Under the pieces are notes generated by a model. The model worked only from the letters and a program-made list of their open reading frames with translations. It searched no databases and had not been told where the DNA came from. DNA of 64,000 nucleotides from Halostella limicola. Lineage in GTDB: Archaea > Halobacteriota > Halobacteria > Halobacteriales > Natronoarchaeaceae. The position numbers and the translations under genes were made by a program. The DNA lies in NCBI RefSeq assembly GCF_003675875.1, contig NZ_RCDI01000001.1:1302001-1366000 (forward strand), in the 5' to 3' direction. Positions 25,320-35,937 of this stretch are shown one piece after another. Position 1 is the stretch's first letter. Each line of letters opens with the position of its first letter.

Positions 25320-25904
25320 TCACAGCCCGGTGAGGAAGTTCTCGATGACGTCGTGTCCCACGGCCGTGAGCACGCTCTCCGGGTGGAACAGCACGCCCTC
25401 GATGGGGTGCTCGCGGTGGCGGACCCCCATCGCGATCTCCGTCCCGTCGTGGTCGGTCACCGCCGTCACCTCGAAGCAGTTCGGCACGTCCGTGGCGATG
25501 AGCGAGTGGTAGCGTCCGGCGCGAAAGCCTTGGTCGAGCCCGGCGAAGACGCCCTCGCCGTCGTGCTCGATCGGGTACGCCTTCCCGTGGATCGGCTCCG
25601 GCGCGCGCCCGACCGCGCCGCCGTAGACGTGGACGGCCGCCTCGAACCCGAGGCAGACGCCCAGCGTCGGCACCTCGGGGCTGACCTCCCGGAGGACGTC
25701 GTTCGTGACGCCCACGTCGCGCTCGTTCGCCGGGTGGCCCGGCCCCGGACTGACGACGATCGCGTCCGGGTCGGCCGCGCGCACCGCGTCGAGGGAGGCG
25801 GTGTTTCGCAGCACCTCGGTGTCGGCGTGCTCGCTGACGTACTCGACGAGGTTGTACGTGAACGAGTCGAAGTTGTCGACGAAAAGTACCGTGGGGTCGC
25901 TCAT
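25320..25904 (-). CDS. trpG: Anthranilate synthase component II (glutamine amidotransferase)
   Basis: This 194-residue class I glutaminase supplies ammonia to TrpE for anthranilate synthesis from chorismate. Motifs are F-V-D-N-F-D-S-F-T-Y-N-L at the start, the oxyanion P-G-P-G-H-P, the nucleophile elbow G-V-C-L-G (Cys ~84) and the His-Glu pair F-H-P-E-S. It is the last gene of trpD-F-E-G; its ATG overlaps the trpE stop by 4 nt. The G-F-E variant after C-L-G replaces the common H-Q of bacterial TrpG. Confidence 0.95.
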   Translation of the reverse strand: MSDPTVLFVDNFDSFTYNLVEYVSEHADTEVLRNTASLDAVRAADPDAIVVSPGPGHPANERDVGVTNDVLREVSPEVPTLGVCLGFEAAVHVYGGAVGRAPEPIHGKAYPIEHDGEGVFAGLDQGFRAGRYHSLIATDVPNCFEVTAVTDHDGTEIAMGVRHREHPIEGVLFHPESVLTAVGHDVIENFLTGL

Positions 25905-27577
25905 CGCTCGCCCCCCAGTTCAGTCGCCGTCTCACCGCCGTCCGACGGGGTCTCCGCGTCGCCGGCTTCGCCGTCGGCCGCGACCGCCCCGTCGCCCGCC
26001 GCGATCCGGTCCAGCGCGACGAGGACGCCGTCCATCTTCTTCTCCGTCTCCTCGTACTCGGCGGTCGGGTCGCTGTCGGCGACGATCCCCGCGCCCGCCT
26101 GCACCGTGACGCGGTCGGCGCTCCCGTCGCCGTCGGGCAGCGCCGCGTCGCGCTCGACGGTCGCCGTCCGGATGACGATGGCCGAGTCCATGTCGCCGTT
26201 CCACGAGTAGTAGCCGACGCCGCCGCCGTAGAGGCCGCGGGGCTCGCGTTCGAGGTAGTCGATGATCTCCATGGCGCGGATCTTTGGCGCGCCAGAGAGC
26301 GTCCCGGCGGGGAACGCCGCCCGCGTCGCGTCGAAGGCATCACAGTCCGCGGCGAGCGTCCCCGTAACGGTGCTCTCGATGTGCTGGACGTGGCTGTACT
26401 TCAGCACGTTCATGAACTCGTCGACGCGGACGCTCCCGGACTCACTGACCCGCCGCACGTCGTTGCGCGCGAGGTCGACGAGCATCGTGTGCTCGGCGCG
26501 TTCCTTCTCGTCAGCGAGCATCTCGCCCGCGAGGCGGCGGTCCTCAACGGGGCTCGCACCGCGGTCGCAGGTGCCCGCGATGGGGTTCGCCATCACCTCC
26601 TCACCGCGGACGGAGACGAGCGTCTCGGGGCTCGCGCCGACGACGTGCAGGTCGTCGTAGCCGAGCAGGTACATGTACGGCGACGGGTTCACCTCCCGGA
26701 GCGCCTCGTACAGTCCCAGCGGGTCGACATCGCCGTACAGCTCCCGCTTGCGAGAGATGACGCCCTGGTAGATGTCGCCGTCGAGGACGTGCTCTTTCGC
26801 CTTCCGGACGCTCTCCTCGTACTCCTCCTGCGGGCCGGCGGTCTCGGCGACCTTGCGGAAACCGCCGGGGTCAGGGCCGTCCGCCGCTGCGAGGAGCGCC
26901 TCGACGCGTTCGACCTCGGCGACGAGGTCGTCGTAGACGGCGCCGGCGTCGTCCTCCGGGCGGAGCACCGGCGTGCAGACGAGTTCGAGCGTCCCCGCCA
27001 CGTCGTCGAAGACGAGCGTCCGGGTGTTCAGCACGAACTGCGCGTCCGGGAACCTGGAGGGCGGGCGCTCCAGCCCCACCTCGTCGAGCCACATGTCGTA
27101 GACGGCGTCGTAGCCGAGGAAGCCGACGAGGCCGCCCTCCAGGTGCTGGCGGTCGTGCTCCGGGAAGCCGCGCAGTTCCGCGTCGGGCAGCACCGCCCGG
27201 AGCTCGTCGACGGTGTCGCCGCCGTTCGTCGCGATCAGGTCGCCGTAGCGCTCCTCGGTCAGCACGTCGACGGTCGTCTCGTCGGGGCCGACCGTCGCGA
27301 CGGCGACCGGGTCGTACCCGACGAACGAGTAGCGCGCGTGCCGGTCCGGGTTGGCCGAAGTCGGCCGGAACGCGCCGTCCGGGTCGCTGGAGGCGGTCTT
27401 CTCCGCGCTTTCGAGCAGGAAGGAGTAGTCCGACGCGTCGGCGTCGGTCGTCCGGCCCGTCAGCGCGGCGTAGGCGGCGAGCGGCGACACGTCGACGTCG
27501 AGGGCCGCGGCCGCGCGGATCACGACCGGCCCGTCGGCGTCCGCGCGCTCGACGAACGTCTCGCGGTCGACGTTCAC
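25901..27577 (-). CDS. trpE: Anthranilate synthase component I
   Basis: This 558-residue chorismate-binding enzyme converts chorismate to anthranilate with ammonia from TrpG. L-L-E-S near residue 55 is the tryptophan feedback-binding motif. The active site is seen as P-I-A-G-T, E-K-E-R-A-E-H-x-M-L-V-D-L-A-R-N-D, G-T-L-S-G-A-P-K and G-G-G-V-G-Y. The C-terminal ~40 residues are an acidic, Gly/Ala-rich tail. A GTG start overlaps trpF by 4 nt. Feedback inhibition by tryptophan is expected. Confidence 0.96.
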   Translation of the reverse strand: MNVDRETFVERADADGPVVIRAAAALDVDVSPLAAYAALTGRTTDADASDYSFLLESAEKTASSDPDGAFRPTSANPDRHARYSFVGYDPVAVATVGPDETTVDVLTEERYGDLIATNGGDTVDELRAVLPDAELRGFPEHDRQHLEGGLVGFLGYDAVYDMWLDEVGLERPPSRFPDAQFVLNTRTLVFDDVAGTLELVCTPVLRPEDDAGAVYDDLVAEVERVEALLAAADGPDPGGFRKVAETAGPQEEYEESVRKAKEHVLDGDIYQGVISRKRELYGDVDPLGLYEALREVNPSPYMYLLGYDDLHVVGASPETLVSVRGEEVMANPIAGTCDRGASPVEDRRLAGEMLADEKERAEHTMLVDLARNDVRRVSESGSVRVDEFMNVLKYSHVQHIESTVTGTLAADCDAFDATRAAFPAGTLSGAPKIRAMEIIDYLEREPRGLYGGGVGYYSWNGDMDSAIVIRTATVERDAALPDGDGSADRVTVQAGAGIVADSDPTAEYEETEKKMDGVLVALDRIAAGDGAVAADGEAGDAETPSDGGETATELGGER

Positions 27578-28293
27578 GCCTCGACCCCCTCGCGGTCCGC
27601 GTCCCCCGCGATCGTCGCGTTCCGGACGAACGCGCGGACGGCCTCGTGGTCCTTCACGCCGCCCTCCGCTTCGACGCCGTCGGTTCGCTCCGCTCCCCGA
27701 CGAGCATCGCGCTCGCTCGGCGAGCGCTCAACCCCGCTCGCAACGTCGACCGCGAACGGGTCGACCGTGCGGACGGCCTCGGTCACGTTGTCGGGCGTGA
27801 GGCCGCCGGCGAGGATCAAGGGCGCTTCCAGATCGGCCGTCGCCTCGCGGGTGCGCTCCCAGTCGTGGGTCTCGCCGGTGCCGCCGCCGCCCGCCGCGTC
27901 GACGGAGTCGACCAGCAGGGCGTCCGCGACGCCGTCGTACTCGGCGGCGCGCTCCGGTTCCGCGGCGTCGACAGACTTGATCACGTCGGCGTCGACGGCC
28001 GCGCGGAGGTCGCCAACCGCGGCGGGGGAGAGGTCGCCGTGCTCCTGCACCGCGTCGGGGCCGACGCGCTCGACGAGGTCCGCGCCGGCCGCGGCGCTCT
28101 CCGGCATCGTCACCAGCACGCTCGTCACGAACGGCGGGACCGCGGCGGCCAGTTCGGCCGCGCGCTCGGGCGACACCTCGCGGGGCGTGTCGACCGGCAC
28201 GTCGCAGATGAACCCGACGGCGTCCGCGCCGGCGTCGACGGCCGCGCGGAGGTCCGCCTCGCGGGTGATCCCGCAGATCTTCGCCCGCGTCAT
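27574..28293 (-). CDS. trpF: Phosphoribosylanthranilate isomerase with an inserted segment
   Basis: TrpF isomerises phosphoribosylanthranilate to CdRP. Visible motifs are the catalytic Cys in K-I-C-G-I-T (residues 5-10), the TIM-barrel strand L-I-L-A-G-G-L-T-P-D-N-V and the phosphate-binding D-V-A-S-G-V-E. After that last motif about 19 extra residues rich in S, R, E and D interrupt the usual join to G-G-V-K-D-H-E. They coincide with DNA palindromes at 27678-27727 and are followed by a second G-V-E. A ~15-residue tail extends the C-terminus. Overlaps trpD and trpE by 4 nt each. Confidence 0.93.
   Translation of the reverse strand: MTRAKICGITREADLRAAVDAGADAVGFICDVPVDTPREVSPERAAELAAAVPPFVTSVLVTMPESAAAGADLVERVGPDAVQEHGDLSPAAVGDLRAAVDADVIKSVDAAEPERAAEYDGVADALLVDSVDAAGGGGTGETHDWERTREATADLEAPLILAGGLTPDNVTEAVRTVDPFAVDVASGVERSPSERDARRGAERTDGVEAEGGVKDHEAVRAFVRNATIAGDADREGVEA
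27678..27727. repeat. Palindromes inside trpF
   Basis: GCGCTCGC-tcg-GCGAGCGC is a perfect 8-bp stem at 27709-27727. CGTCGG/CCGACG at 27678-27683 and 27697-27702 forms a second hairpin. They encode residues ~189-206, a segment absent from the normal TrpF fold. The open frame is preserved. Confidence 0.6.
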
Positions 28294-29294
28294 CTCGCCA
28301 CGGCCGACTGGAGGTCGGCGAGCTTCCTCGCGGCCTCGCCGGAGTCGATCGCCTCGCGGGCGGCGTCGACGCCCGCTTCCAGGCTCTCGGCCTCGCCCGC
28401 GACGTAGATGGCCGCGCCGGCGTTCGCGAGGATGATGTCGCGCTTCGCGCCCGTCACGTCGCCCTCGACGATCCCCTTCATGTCCTCGGCGTTCTCGGCG
28501 GGGGTACCGCCCGCGACCGCCTCGACGTCGTACTGTTCGAGGCCGAGGTCCGCCGGCGTCAGAGTGTACTCCTCGACCTCGTCGCCGAATACCTCGGCGA
28601 CCGTCGTCTCGCCGTGGATCCCGATCTCGTCCATGCCGGAGCCGTGGACGACCAGCGCGCGCTCGACGTCCATCCGCGCCAGTGCGCGGGCGAGCACCGG
28701 CACGAGGTCCGGGTCGTACACGCCGACGATCTGCGCGTCAGCGCCGGCCGGGTTCGTCAGCGGCCCGAGCACGTTGAAGATCGTCCGCATCCCGAGCTCC
28801 TTCCGCGGGCCGATGACGGCCTTCATCGCGGGGTGGAACACGGTCGCGAGCATGAAGCCGATGCCGTCGTCCTCGATGGCCTCCTCGACGGCCGGCGGTT
28901 CGGCCTCGACGTTCACGCCGACCTCTTCGAGCACGTCCGCGCTCCCGGAGGACGAGGACACGGAGTAGTTACCGTGCTTGGCGACCGGCACGCCCGCGCC
29001 GCTGGCGACGATGGCGCTCGTCGTCGACACGTTGATCGTGTCGTAGTCGTCGCCGCCCGTGCCGCAGGTGTCGACCAGCGGCGTCCGGTCCGGATCGATC
29101 GTCCGCGCCGCGTTGCGCATCCCTTCGGCGAAGCCCGCGATCTCCGTCTCCGTCTCGCCCTTGGCCCGCAGCGCCGCCAGGAGCGCGCCGATCTGCGCTT
29201 CCGTCGCTTCCTCGAAGACGGCCGTCGCCGCCTCGCGCGCTTCCGACTGGGTCAGGTCCGCGCCGTCACTGACGCGTTCGATGTGTTCCTGCAT
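28290..29294 (-). CDS. trpD: Anthranilate phosphoribosyltransferase
   Basis: This 334-residue enzyme joins anthranilate and PRPP. The PRPP/Mg motif D-T-C-G-T-G-G-D-D-Y-D-T-I-N-V-S-T is near residues 78-95. K-H-G-N-Y-S-V-S-S-S-S-G-S-A-D follows, along with the H-P-A-M-K anthranilate-channel region and R-T-I-F-N-V-L-G-P-L-T-N-P. It is the first gene of a trpD-F-E-G operon. trpC, trpB and trpA are not in this window. Expression is probably controlled at the TGTACA pair 34-49 bp upstream. Confidence 0.96.
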   Translation of the reverse strand: MQEHIERVSDGADLTQSEAREAATAVFEEATEAQIGALLAALRAKGETETEIAGFAEGMRNAARTIDPDRTPLVDTCGTGGDDYDTINVSTTSAIVASGAGVPVAKHGNYSVSSSSGSADVLEEVGVNVEAEPPAVEEAIEDDGIGFMLATVFHPAMKAVIGPRKELGMRTIFNVLGPLTNPAGADAQIVGVYDPDLVPVLARALARMDVERALVVHGSGMDEIGIHGETTVAEVFGDEVEEYTLTPADLGLEQYDVEAVAGGTPAENAEDMKGIVEGDVTGAKRDIILANAGAAIYVAGEAESLEAGVDAAREAIDSGEAARKLADLQSAVAR

Positions 29295-29327
29295 GATGGG
29301 GCACCGATGGATTACTTCGTGTTGTAG

Positions 29328-29343
29328 TGTACAAATCTGTACA
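29328..29343. promoter_or_regulatory. Candidate trp operator: paired TGTACA boxes
   Basis: TGTACA at 29328-29333 and again at 29338-29343 are 10 bp apart, one helical turn. Together they form a near-perfect 16-bp palindrome, 34-49 bp before the trpD ATG. A TATA-like CTTAAG (29348-29353) lies just upstream in the direction of transcription. TGTACA is the TRP-box consensus bound by TrpY in Methanothermobacter. A repressor here would block the promoter. Confidence 0.6.
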
Positions 29344-29455
29344 TCAACTTAAGGCTGTCGCCGGCGCGGTCGTCGCCGATTCCCATACGGCGTCGGAATT
29401 CGAAACCTTCAATTATATCCCCCGGCTACCGGTTAGTGCAGGCAAGCACCAGACG

Positions 29456-29530
29456 GGGTTTGTGGTCTAGTCTGGTTATGACACCTCCTTGACATGGAGG
29501 AGGCCGGCAGTTCAAATCTGCCCAAACCCA
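29456..29530 (+). tRNA. tRNA-Val (GAC)
   Basis: The acceptor stem pairs GGGTTTG (29456-29462) with CAAACCC (29523-29529), discriminator A. The D arm contains GGTCTAGTCTGGTTATGAC. The anticodon stem CCTCC/GGAGG encloses TTGACAT, anticodon GAC at 29491-29493. The T arm is GGCAG-TTCAAAT-CTGCC. There is no intron and no encoded CCA. AATTATATCC about 35-45 bp upstream is a probable TATA element. Confidence 0.97.
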
Positions 29531-29661
29531 CTACATTCTTCCGACGCTGCTCTGCCAGCGCCAGGTGTATTCGAGACGTCGAACGATGAATCAGGGAGCG
29601 TAGCGTAACGACGGGGTTCGATCTGCCCAATAGGTTCCTCCGTCAGACCTGCGTTCTACCC

Positions 29662-32790: not shown

Positions 32791-35700
32791 ATGAGTGATA
32801 CCCCCCGTGTTCTTTACGTGAGTCTGGGGCCCGGAGACGACGCTGCCGACGCTCTCGCCGACGAACTCCCCGACGCCACCATCGAGACAGCCGCGGACGG
32901 TGCGGCCGTCGAGGCACGCGTCGCCGAGGGAGACGTCGACTGCGTCGTCAGCGCGCACGATCCCCCCGACGTGGACGCGATGGCGGTGCTCGACCGGCTC
33001 CGCGAGGCGCTGCCGACGCTCCCGTTCGTGCTGTTCGCGGACGATCCCCCCGGGTCGACGGTGCGCGAACTGTACGACCGGCGGGCGACGACGCTCGTTC
33101 GACGCGACGGCGACAGCGGCTACGCCGCCCTCGGCGCGGAGGTGTCGAAACACGTCGCGCCGTCCGTCCCCGAGAACCTCCCCCGAAACGCCGAGCACGT
33201 GTACCGGGCGCTCGAATCGTCGGACCAGGGGATCGGTCTGCTCGACGCCGACGGCGAGTTCGTCTACGTCAACGAGGCGTACGCGGATATCTACGGCTAC
33301 GACCGCGAGGAGATGGTCGGAGAACACTGGTCGATGCTGTACAGGGAGGAAGACGTCGAGCGAGTCGAGGAGGAGATCCTGCCGCAGGTGGACGAGGCAG
33401 GGAGGTGGCGCGGGGAGACGGTCGGCGTCCGGAGCGACGACGAGGAGTTCGTCGAGGACCACACCCTCGCCCACACGACCGACGGCGGCCTCGTCTGTAT
33501 GGTCCGGGACGTCACTGACCGGAAGCACCTGCAGTCGGAACTCGATGAGGCGCTCGGCCGGATAACGGACGCGTTCTACTCCCTGGACCGGGGATGGCAG
33601 TTCACCTACCTGAACGACAGGGCGGAGGCGCTGCTCGACCGCGACGCCGACGAGGTCATCGGGGAGACGGTGTGGGACGAGTTCCCCGATATCCGCGACA
33701 CCGAGATCGGGGAGAAGTACCGGGAAGCGATGGAGTGTCAGGAGCCGGTGCGGTTCGAGTCGTTCTACGAACCGCTCGACGCCTGGTTCCGGATCCACGC
33801 CTACCCCTCCGAAACCGGCCTGTCGGTGTACTTCGAGGACGTCACCGAGGCCGTTCGGACGCGGCGGGAACTCGAGATGGAAAAAGAGCGGTTCCGGCGC
33901 ATGGTCGAGGACGTCCAGGACTACGCGATCTTCATGCTCGACCCCGAGGGCAACGTGCGGAGCTGGAACGCCGGGGCGGAGCAGATCAAGGGGTACGAGG
34001 AGGAGGAGATCGTCGGTGAGCACTTCTCGACGTTTTACACCGAGGAAGCCGTGGACGACGGCGTTCCCGAGCACAATCTCGCCGAGGCGGCGAGGGAGGG
34101 CCGGACCACTCACGAGGGGTGGCGCGTCCGGAAGGACGGAACCCGGTTCTGGGGGTTCGTCACGATCACGGCACTGTACGACGACGGCGACCTTCAGGGG
34201 TTCACGAAGGTGACGCGGGACATGACGGAGCGAAAGCGCCGCGAGGAGCAGTTGACCGAGCTCAACGACCTCTCCCGGGACCTGCTCGAAGCGGAGACGG
34301 CCGACGAGATAAGCGACCTCGCGGTGACGGCCGCCCGGTCGATACTCGACTGTCCCGTGATCAGCGTCGCGCTGTACGACGCCGACGCCGGAGACCTGAA
34401 ACCGGTCGCGCAGACGCCCGAAGCGGCTGACGCGACCGAAGGTGGGATAGTGATCGACAACGGCCGCCGGATCGAGTGGAAGGCGTTCGTCGAGAGTGAG
34501 ACGAAGCGGTGGGGCGAGCCGGACGATGCGGCGTTCGAGGGGTCCCCGTCGAACGGCTGCGTCGTGCCGCTGGGTCGCCACGGCGTGCTCGCGGTGGGAT
34601 CGACCGCGGCGGACGGCCTCGGCGAGTCGACCGTCGACGTGGCGGAGGTCCTCGCGTCGACGGTGACTGCCGCGCTCGACCGCACGGAGCGCGAGCGCGA
34701 GGTGCGGGAACACGAGCAGTCCCTCGAAGAGAAAAACGAGGCCCTCGAACGGCTCAACCGCATCAACGAGGTCATCCGCAGCATCGACCGGGCGCTCGTC
34801 GGCGCGACGACGCGGGCCGAGATCGAGGAGGCGGTCTGCGCGGAACTCGCCGACGCGAGCCCGTACTGTTTCGCCTGGATCGGCGCCACCTCGGGGGCGA
34901 CGAACGAGGTGCGGCCGCGCCAGTGGGCCGGCGCGGACCAGGGGTACCTCGACGGGGTCGACCACGTGGCGGCGGGCCCGGACGCCGAACAGTCACCGGC
35001 AGTGCGTGCGATGCGAACGCGGGAGACGCAGGCGGAGCCAAGCCTGCTCACCGATCCGCCGTTCGAGCCCTGGCGACAGGAGGCGCTCTCCCGCGAGTTC
35101 CGCTCCGCGATCAGCATCCCGCTTGAGTACGCCGGGTCGCTGTACGGCGTCCTGAGCGTGTGCGCGGACGACACGGGCGTCTTCGACGAGATGGAGCAAG
35201 CGGTGCTGACCGAACTCGGGGATACGATCGCTCACGCCATCAACGCCGTCGAGAGCAAGAAGGCGCTGGTCAGCGACTCCGTCGTCGAACTGGAGTTCCG
35301 GCTCCGCGACCCGGATCTGGTGCTCGCGCGGGCCGTCTCCGAGGGCGGCGGCCGCTTCGAGTTCGAGGGGGTCGTCCCCGACGAGGGGCACGGACGGTTG
35401 TTTTTCACCGTCTCCGGTATGGACCCCGAGGCGGTGGCCGAGCACGTCGACCCAACACCGGAGATCGATGACCTCAGGCTCGTCGCCGAGCGCGGGGACC
35501 GTTACCTCTACGAGATGGCGCTCACGGACCGGAGCCTCGTGCGAACCCTGATCGACCACGGGGCCGTCCCGAGAGAGATCACGGCGGACGGCGACGAGGT
35601 CCGCCTCGTGGTCGACCTCTCGGAGGACGCGGACGTTCGCGGGTTCGCCGAGATGATGCAGTCCCGGTATCAGGACGTCGAGCTCGTCGGTCGTCGAGAG

Positions 35701-35937
35701 CGTGAACGCCCGGTCCAGACGCGGGACAGTTTCCTCGCCGAGGTGAGCGACCGGCTCACGGCCCGGCAGGAAGAAGTGCTCAGAACGGCGTACCTGAGCG
35801 GCTTCTTCGAGACGCCGCGGGACCGGACCGGCGGCGAGATCGCGGAGTCGCTCGGCGTCTCCCAGCCGACGTTCAACAACCACCTCCGCGCCGCCCAGCG
35901 GAAGCTCTTTACCCTGCTGTTCGAAGGGGAGGCCTAG
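32791..35937 (+). CDS. PAS/GAF sensor with C-terminal Bat-type HTH_10 regulator
   Basis: This is a 1048-residue one-component transcription regulator. Domains in order: a receiver-like N-terminus (~5-115), three PAS domains (~135-250, ~255-370, ~375-500, each ending in a PAC-like V-T-D/T-E-R segment), two GAF domains (~510-640 and ~670-830), a bacterio-opsin-activator domain (~835-975) and HTH_10 (~985-1037, with E-I-A-E-S-L-G-V-S-Q-P-T-F-N-N-H-L). No histidine-kinase H-box or ATP-binding lid is present. Signal input may be redox or light, as for Bat, but the ligand is unknown. It faces a divergent DUF4097 lipoprotein gene. Confidence 0.9.
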   Translation: MSDTPRVLYVSLGPGDDAADALADELPDATIETAADGAAVEARVAEGDVDCVVSAHDPPDVDAMAVLDRLREALPTLPFVLFADDPPGSTVRELYDRRATTLVRRDGDSGYAALGAEVSKHVAPSVPENLPRNAEHVYRALESSDQGIGLLDADGEFVYVNEAYADIYGYDREEMVGEHWSMLYREEDVERVEEEILPQVDEAGRWRGETVGVRSDDEEFVEDHTLAHTTDGGLVCMVRDVTDRKHLQSELDEALGRITDAFYSLDRGWQFTYLNDRAEALLDRDADEVIGETVWDEFPDIRDTEIGEKYREAMECQEPVRFESFYEPLDAWFRIHAYPSETGLSVYFEDVTEAVRTRRELEMEKERFRRMVEDVQDYAIFMLDPEGNVRSWNAGAEQIKGYEEEEIVGEHFSTFYTEEAVDDGVPEHNLAEAAREGRTTHEGWRVRKDGTRFWGFVTITALYDDGDLQGFTKVTRDMTERKRREEQLTELNDLSRDLLEAETADEISDLAVTAARSILDCPVISVALYDADAGDLKPVAQTPEAADATEGGIVIDNGRRIEWKAFVESETKRWGEPDDAAFEGSPSNGCVVPLGRHGVLAVGSTAADGLGESTVDVAEVLASTVTAALDRTEREREVREHEQSLEEKNEALERLNRINEVIRSIDRALVGATTRAEIEEAVCAELADASPYCFAWIGATSGATNEVRPRQWAGADQGYLDGVDHVAAGPDAEQSPAVRAMRTRETQAEPSLLTDPPFEPWRQEALSREFRSAISIPLEYAGSLYGVLSVCADDTGVFDEMEQAVLTELGDTIAHAINAVESKKALVSDSVVELEFRLRDPDLVLARAVSEGGGRFEFEGVVPDEGHGRLFFTVSGMDPEAVAEHVDPTPEIDDLRLVAERGDRYLYEMALTDRSLVRTLIDHGAVPREITADGDEVRLVVDLSEDADVRGFAEMMQSRYQDVELVGRRERERPVQTRDSFLAEVSDRLTARQEEVLRTAYLSGFFETPRDRTGGEIAESLGVSQPTFNNHLRAAQRKLFTLLFEGEA

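Follow-up and report, generated by a model that had tools for sequence, protein, structure and literature searches.

Phased TGTACA-type boxes as a candidate TrpY operator at both tryptophan operons of Halobacteria

Introduction

The hexamer TGTACA is the TRP-box consensus of TrpY, a repressor of Methanothermobacter thermautotrophicus, and to our knowledge TrpY has so far been studied in very few archaea. The trpY and trpE promoter regions of M. thermautotrophicus overlap and carry TRP boxes (PMC6737238). In Thermococcus kodakarensis, the homologue TkTrpY (TK1227) is 42% identical to MtTrpY and does not bind the T. kodakarensis trp promoter (PMC6737238), so membership of the TrpY family is no guarantee of function. 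Haloarchaeal TrpY homologues fall in branches apart from MtTrpY, and their functions have been stated to be unexamined (PMC6737238). Expression data are available from Halobacterium salinarum, where the seven ORFs of both trp operons are all induced without aromatic amino acids, and where the trp operon ORFs rise 1.5-5 fold in an aromatic-pathway mutant (PMC4162585).

Here, we analyse a pair of TGTACA boxes at the trpDFEG promoter of Halostella limicola, which an earlier note had read as a sign of either TrpY-like tryptophan control in Halobacteria or convergent use of the same box. We propose that the boxes are the trpDFEG operator, and that one TrpY-family repressor controls both trpDFEG and trpCBA in response to tryptophan, a reading to which we give a probability of roughly 0.77.

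Results

Within the 64-kb window (the whole stretch of DNA analysed), the sequence TGTACAAATCTGTACA at 29328-29343 consists of two TGTACA hexamers whose starts are 10 bp apart (TGTACA-N4-TGTACA), exactly as the earlier note had described them. Read on the trp strand, the order is CTTAAG-TTGA-TGTACA-GATT-TGTACA, followed after 33 bp by the trpD start codon; the boxes had thus been correctly placed before trpD, and the distance, previously given as 34 bp, needs a small correction. NCBIfam models bear out the gene order proposed for the operon, which runs on the minus strand as trpD (anthranilate phosphoribosyltransferase, 28290..29294, start codon 29294; TIGR01245), trpF (phosphoribosylanthranilate isomerase, 27574..28293; NCBIfam), trpE (anthranilate synthase component I, 25901..27577; TIGR01820) and trpG (anthranilate synthase component II, 25320..25904; NF041322). 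Elsewhere in the window, a tRNA-Val (gac) gene on the plus strand (29456-29531) lies a short distance upstream of the trpD promoter region, and 32791-35937 encodes a big PAS/GAF sensor protein of the bacterio-opsin-activator type, which contains BAT and HTH_10 domains.

The pair is embedded in a conserved promoter/operator block that we delimit, by conservation among relatives, at 29302..29360 on the minus strand. The TATA-like sequence that had been noticed just upstream of the boxes is CTTAAG (29348..29353), with its TTA invariant in 79 aligned promoters, and it is directly preceded by a conserved CGACAGC (29354..29360) that is BRE-like and may act as such. Box 1 (29338..29343), nearest the TATA box, is the first half of an ATGTAC-N6-GTnCAT inverted repeat and is kept by 80 relatives at their trpD promoters. 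Box 2 (29328..29333) follows 10 bp past box 1, and a third box position (29308..29313) lies 30 bp past box 1, where H. limicola has a degenerate AATCCA and the consensus of its relatives is CGTACA. Next to the start codon, a conserved GGTG (29302..29305) is possibly Shine-Dalgarno-like for trpD. From the TATA spacing we expect transcription of trpDFEG to start near 29322-29326; the TRP boxes sit directly downstream of the TATA element and across the expected start, where binding of TrpY would block the basal machinery.

Conservation of this block was assessed in 80 trpD loci from named haloarchaea, and a block of 60 bp upstream of the trpD start codon is present in 80/80. Its consensus on the trp strand is CGAYAcGCTTAAGTYGATGTACKnATTTGKnCATTrYAAgACrAMwACGTACATTGGTG; column counts come from 79 aligned promoters, with L067 and L095, whose TATA region is slightly different, omitted. 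The columns immediately upstream of the block carry about 0.2 bit of information each, and the conservation at trpD is therefore local. Both TGTACA hexamers are exact in only 6 of the 80 promoters, box 2 being degenerate (TGnnCA) in most species, and the general form is ATGTAC-N6-GnnCAT with another GTnCAT 20 bp on. The near-perfect palindrome pointed out earlier is real, and what is conserved extends further and is more loosely defined than a doubled TGTACA. Searching with a pattern that combines the TATA element with box 1 picks out 54 of 97 genomes, compared with about five when the reversed control pattern is used.

With nine copies of TGTACA in the window, the pair could in principle be a chance meeting of six-base palindromes in an AT-rich promoter. 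We reject this explanation, whose probability we regard as negligible: TGTACAAATCTGTACA is the only match with 0 or 1 mismatch in the whole 4.1-Mb genome, where base composition predicts about 0.03 exact copies, and the site is conserved in all 80 relatives.

The earlier note had suggested searching for similar boxes before trpCBA, and these are present. In the same genome the sequence of the trpC promoter is CCTTATGTACAAATCCGTCCGTTAATGTACGATGATG, and a box array like that at trpD was found in 30/30 trpC promoters, one per genome, where it extends to the start codon. Among hexamers with at least 5 matches to TGTACA, the spacing of pairs is a multiple of 10 bp in 196/210 cases at trpD and 51/51 at trpC (247/261 together, from related loci that are not independent samples), while the most such pairs seen in 200 base shuffles was 6 at trpD and 2 at trpC. 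Spacing in 10-bp multiples places the boxes on one face of the DNA. One genome, G021, gives trpB a promoter of its own, with an array between trpC and trpB (L201, G021:C39:47084-47103); none was seen before its trpC. In another locus (L096:3591 onwards), a gene close behind trpA resembles the first enzyme of the aromatic pathway (compare OE1472F in the H. salinarum trpCBA operon), and given this gene the trpC array might also govern entry into the pathway.

Because a short degenerate pattern proved too noisy in four genomes to define a regulon, we used a profile (R1) of 24 columns, built on the trpD and trpC sites and searched in 39 whole Halobacteria genomes at E <= 1. R1 gave 83 hits in 38/39 genomes, 80 of them at trp promoters, as assigned by tblastn for fetched loci and by coordinates relative to trpC/trpE matches for the others. 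Matches at trp genes are expected of a profile trained on trp sites, partly from the same 39 genomes, and the informative part of this result is the near-absence of other matches: three hits (in G002, G022 and G006) have no trp gene at the site. Only G018 gives no R1 hit, and even there CGTACA-N4-TGTACA is present at trpD.

These data bear on the idea that the block is mainly a core promoter with its 5' leader, or an activator or RNA-level element, in which TGTACA is not a repressor site. The block does contain a TATA element, a BRE-like stretch and a GGTG beside the start codon. The trpC array, however, is placed differently, overlapping the start codon, and yet keeps the 10-bp phasing; arrays precede trpD, trpC, trpE or trpB2, depending on family; and the site is almost confined to trp genes genome-wide, unlike a core promoter element. 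We consider this alternative very improbable, and a repressor operator remains our preferred reading of the block.

A suggested search for a TrpY-like HTH/ACT protein led to the candidate repressor P0001, a protein of 167 residues encoded outside the window (G000:C2:374858-375358) that scores 241.3 bits against NCBIfam TrpY_fam (NF053754; cut-off 180) and is the one TrpY that a TrpY_fam search finds in the genome. The Pfam ACT model at its normal threshold detects metabolic enzymes only, with P0001 below threshold at E 0.04. An AlphaFold2 model built from 45 sequences (pLDDT 93.3) shows an N-terminal winged helix and a C-terminal ACT domain, with helices at 13-25, 44-50 and 55-67 and a beta-alpha-beta-beta-alpha-beta ACT domain at 93-166. 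A Foldseek comparison with the PDB places the IlvN ACT domain first and retrieves Lrp/AsnC regulators across the whole length; no solved structure matching P0001 by sequence was found. TrpY_fam occurs in 292/292 Halobacteria (291 above cut-off), and the control genomes, those of H. volcanii and Methanosarcina acetivorans, give matches as well. The trpY gene lies about 0.95 Mb from trpDFEG, and no boxes were found in 19 haloarchaeal regions upstream of trpY, so autoregulation is not supported. Two genomes (G162 and G169) encode a TrpY-family protein although neither gives a TrpE match that passes the threshold; their TrpY may have another role, or the data may be incomplete.

All sampled Halobacteria have both TrpY and boxes, and no loss event within the class therefore tests the link between them. 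Outside Halobacteria we examined 60 genomes from the same phylum, for which the label 'methanogen' is deduced from genome size and trp gene order, taking the best three-box array with 10-bp spacing in the 5 kb upstream of trpE. By a position criterion chosen after the data were seen, an array immediately precedes the first trp gene (trpD, trpC, trpE or trpB2) in 43/47 genomes whose TrpY belongs to the haloarchaeal/methanogen clade, and in 0/13 genomes with a divergent TrpY clade (families f13 and f16) or no TrpY match (f18 and f24). The Fisher p value of 5e-10 overstates independence, as p values do for genomes related to one another; counted by family, arrays occur in 14/15 against 0/4, and by shuffle significance alone (p <= 0.05) in 33/47 against 1/13 genomes. 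The two TrpY clades are split by a long branch with full support. The way in which arrays and TrpY clade go together across the phylum speaks for inherited control by TrpY rather than for the convergence that the earlier note had held out as its alternative.

In f16, trpY is divergent to and adjoins trpC across a gap of about 130 to 210 bp (G085:C5:110672-110878; G103:C83:1912-2093; G112:C4:15116-15249), an arrangement that resembles trpY-trpE of M. thermautotrophicus. Genomes of the divergent TrpY clade lack TGTACA arrays and carry TTCCCA...TGGGAA or TGGGAA-like words close to where trpC starts (upstream of trpC in L309, L310, L311 and L313, and at the trpC start in G085, G094, G103 and G112 of f16), which are possibly a different operator.

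The same survey bears on whether the site, though a real trp operator, is bound by another protein of Lrp/AsnC type, such as LrpA2, and resembles TGTACA by convergence. Lrp-type proteins share the domain order of an HTH followed by a ligand-binding alpha/beta domain, and H. salinarum lrpA2, a proposed regulator of the pathway, rises 14.9-fold without aromatic amino acids (PMC4162585). Against an Lrp-type binder, arrays track the TrpY clade in 19 non-haloarchaeal families (TrpY being the family surveyed), and are absent where TrpY is missing (G087, G096 and G105) or divergent (f13 and f16). We judge such a binder unlikely, and favour TrpY.

Discussion

The most likely explanation of our results is that the site before both haloarchaeal trp operons, and before those of many related methanogens, is where TrpY represses when tryptophan is plentiful. 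The TrpY-like tryptophan control that the earlier note had suggested is supported, as a prediction, by the trpCBA boxes, the TrpY protein and the co-distribution of boxes and TrpY clade; we infer TrpY as the binder, its role as a repressor, and tryptophan as its ligand. In the mechanism we propose, a single TrpY with a winged helix and an ACT domain would bind TGTACA-like boxes set in 10-bp multiples along one helix face. Bound to boxes between the TATA element and the translation start, the protein would block either assembly or release of the transcription complex. Its ACT domain probably senses tryptophan, with more tryptophan giving stronger repression, and trpCBA would be controlled by the same TrpY through the same type of box. 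Tryptophan is put forward as co-repressor by analogy with the M. thermautotrophicus case (PMC6737238) and because of the predicted ACT domain.

The expression data from H. salinarum are consistent with tryptophan-linked repression of the trp genes. Counter-evidence comes from a passage in a 2026 paper (PMC13147458, citing Large et al. 2007), which describes the native trpCBA promoter of H. volcanii as not tightly regulated.

More tentatively, and at somewhat less than even odds, we suggest that TrpY already acted on helix-phased arrays of at least three boxes in the common ancestor of Halobacteria and the methanogens of this phylum, that this pairing was kept into aerobic, salt-loving life, and that the sister TrpY clade (f13 and f16) switched operator.

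In the open-licence literature we found no description of a class-wide, two-operon TrpY regulon with phased boxes in Halobacteria, and nothing on TGTACA in connection with archaea and tryptophan. The system is of a known kind; what appears to be new is its class-wide, two-operon presence in Halobacteria, with phased boxes common to other lineages. How haloarchaeal trp genes are switched is not settled, and our analysis names a protein, defines two operators and makes single-base predictions for genetically tractable species such as Haloferax volcanii, in which trp genes and markers based on them are used every day. In addition, it presents an old archaeal pair of regulator and operator whose joint evolution can be traced across about 20 families.

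Among described regulators, Lrp/AsnC proteins (for example LrpA2 of H. salinarum) resemble the candidate in joining an HTH to a ligand-binding alpha/beta domain and in their amino-acid-linked regulation; unlike them, the candidate is placed by sequence in TrpY_fam, and full-length structural similarity is marginal (TM about 0.3). A point of resemblance in Tar (TK0271) of T. kodakarensis is that it acts on the trp operon by way of a palindrome with half-sites of six bases (TGGACA-N8-TGTCCA). Tar, however, is an activator whose site lies upstream of BRE/TATA with N8 spacing, whereas here the spacing is N4 and the boxes lie downstream of the TATA element; Tar homologues are reported mainly in Thermococcales. 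TkTrpY belongs to the same protein family as the candidate. There is also a likeness to the TrpY/TRP-box system at trpEGCFBAD of M. thermautotrophicus, which shares TGTACA-type boxes at a trp promoter and one HTH and ACT protein of the TrpY family (NF053754), and by analogy with which repression in the presence of tryptophan would be expected here. Unlike M. thermautotrophicus TrpY, which also controls its own gene, the haloarchaeal protein is encoded away from the trp genes, with no boxes of its own; and in place of the single trpEGCFBAD operon, the boxes in Halobacteria cover two separate operons.
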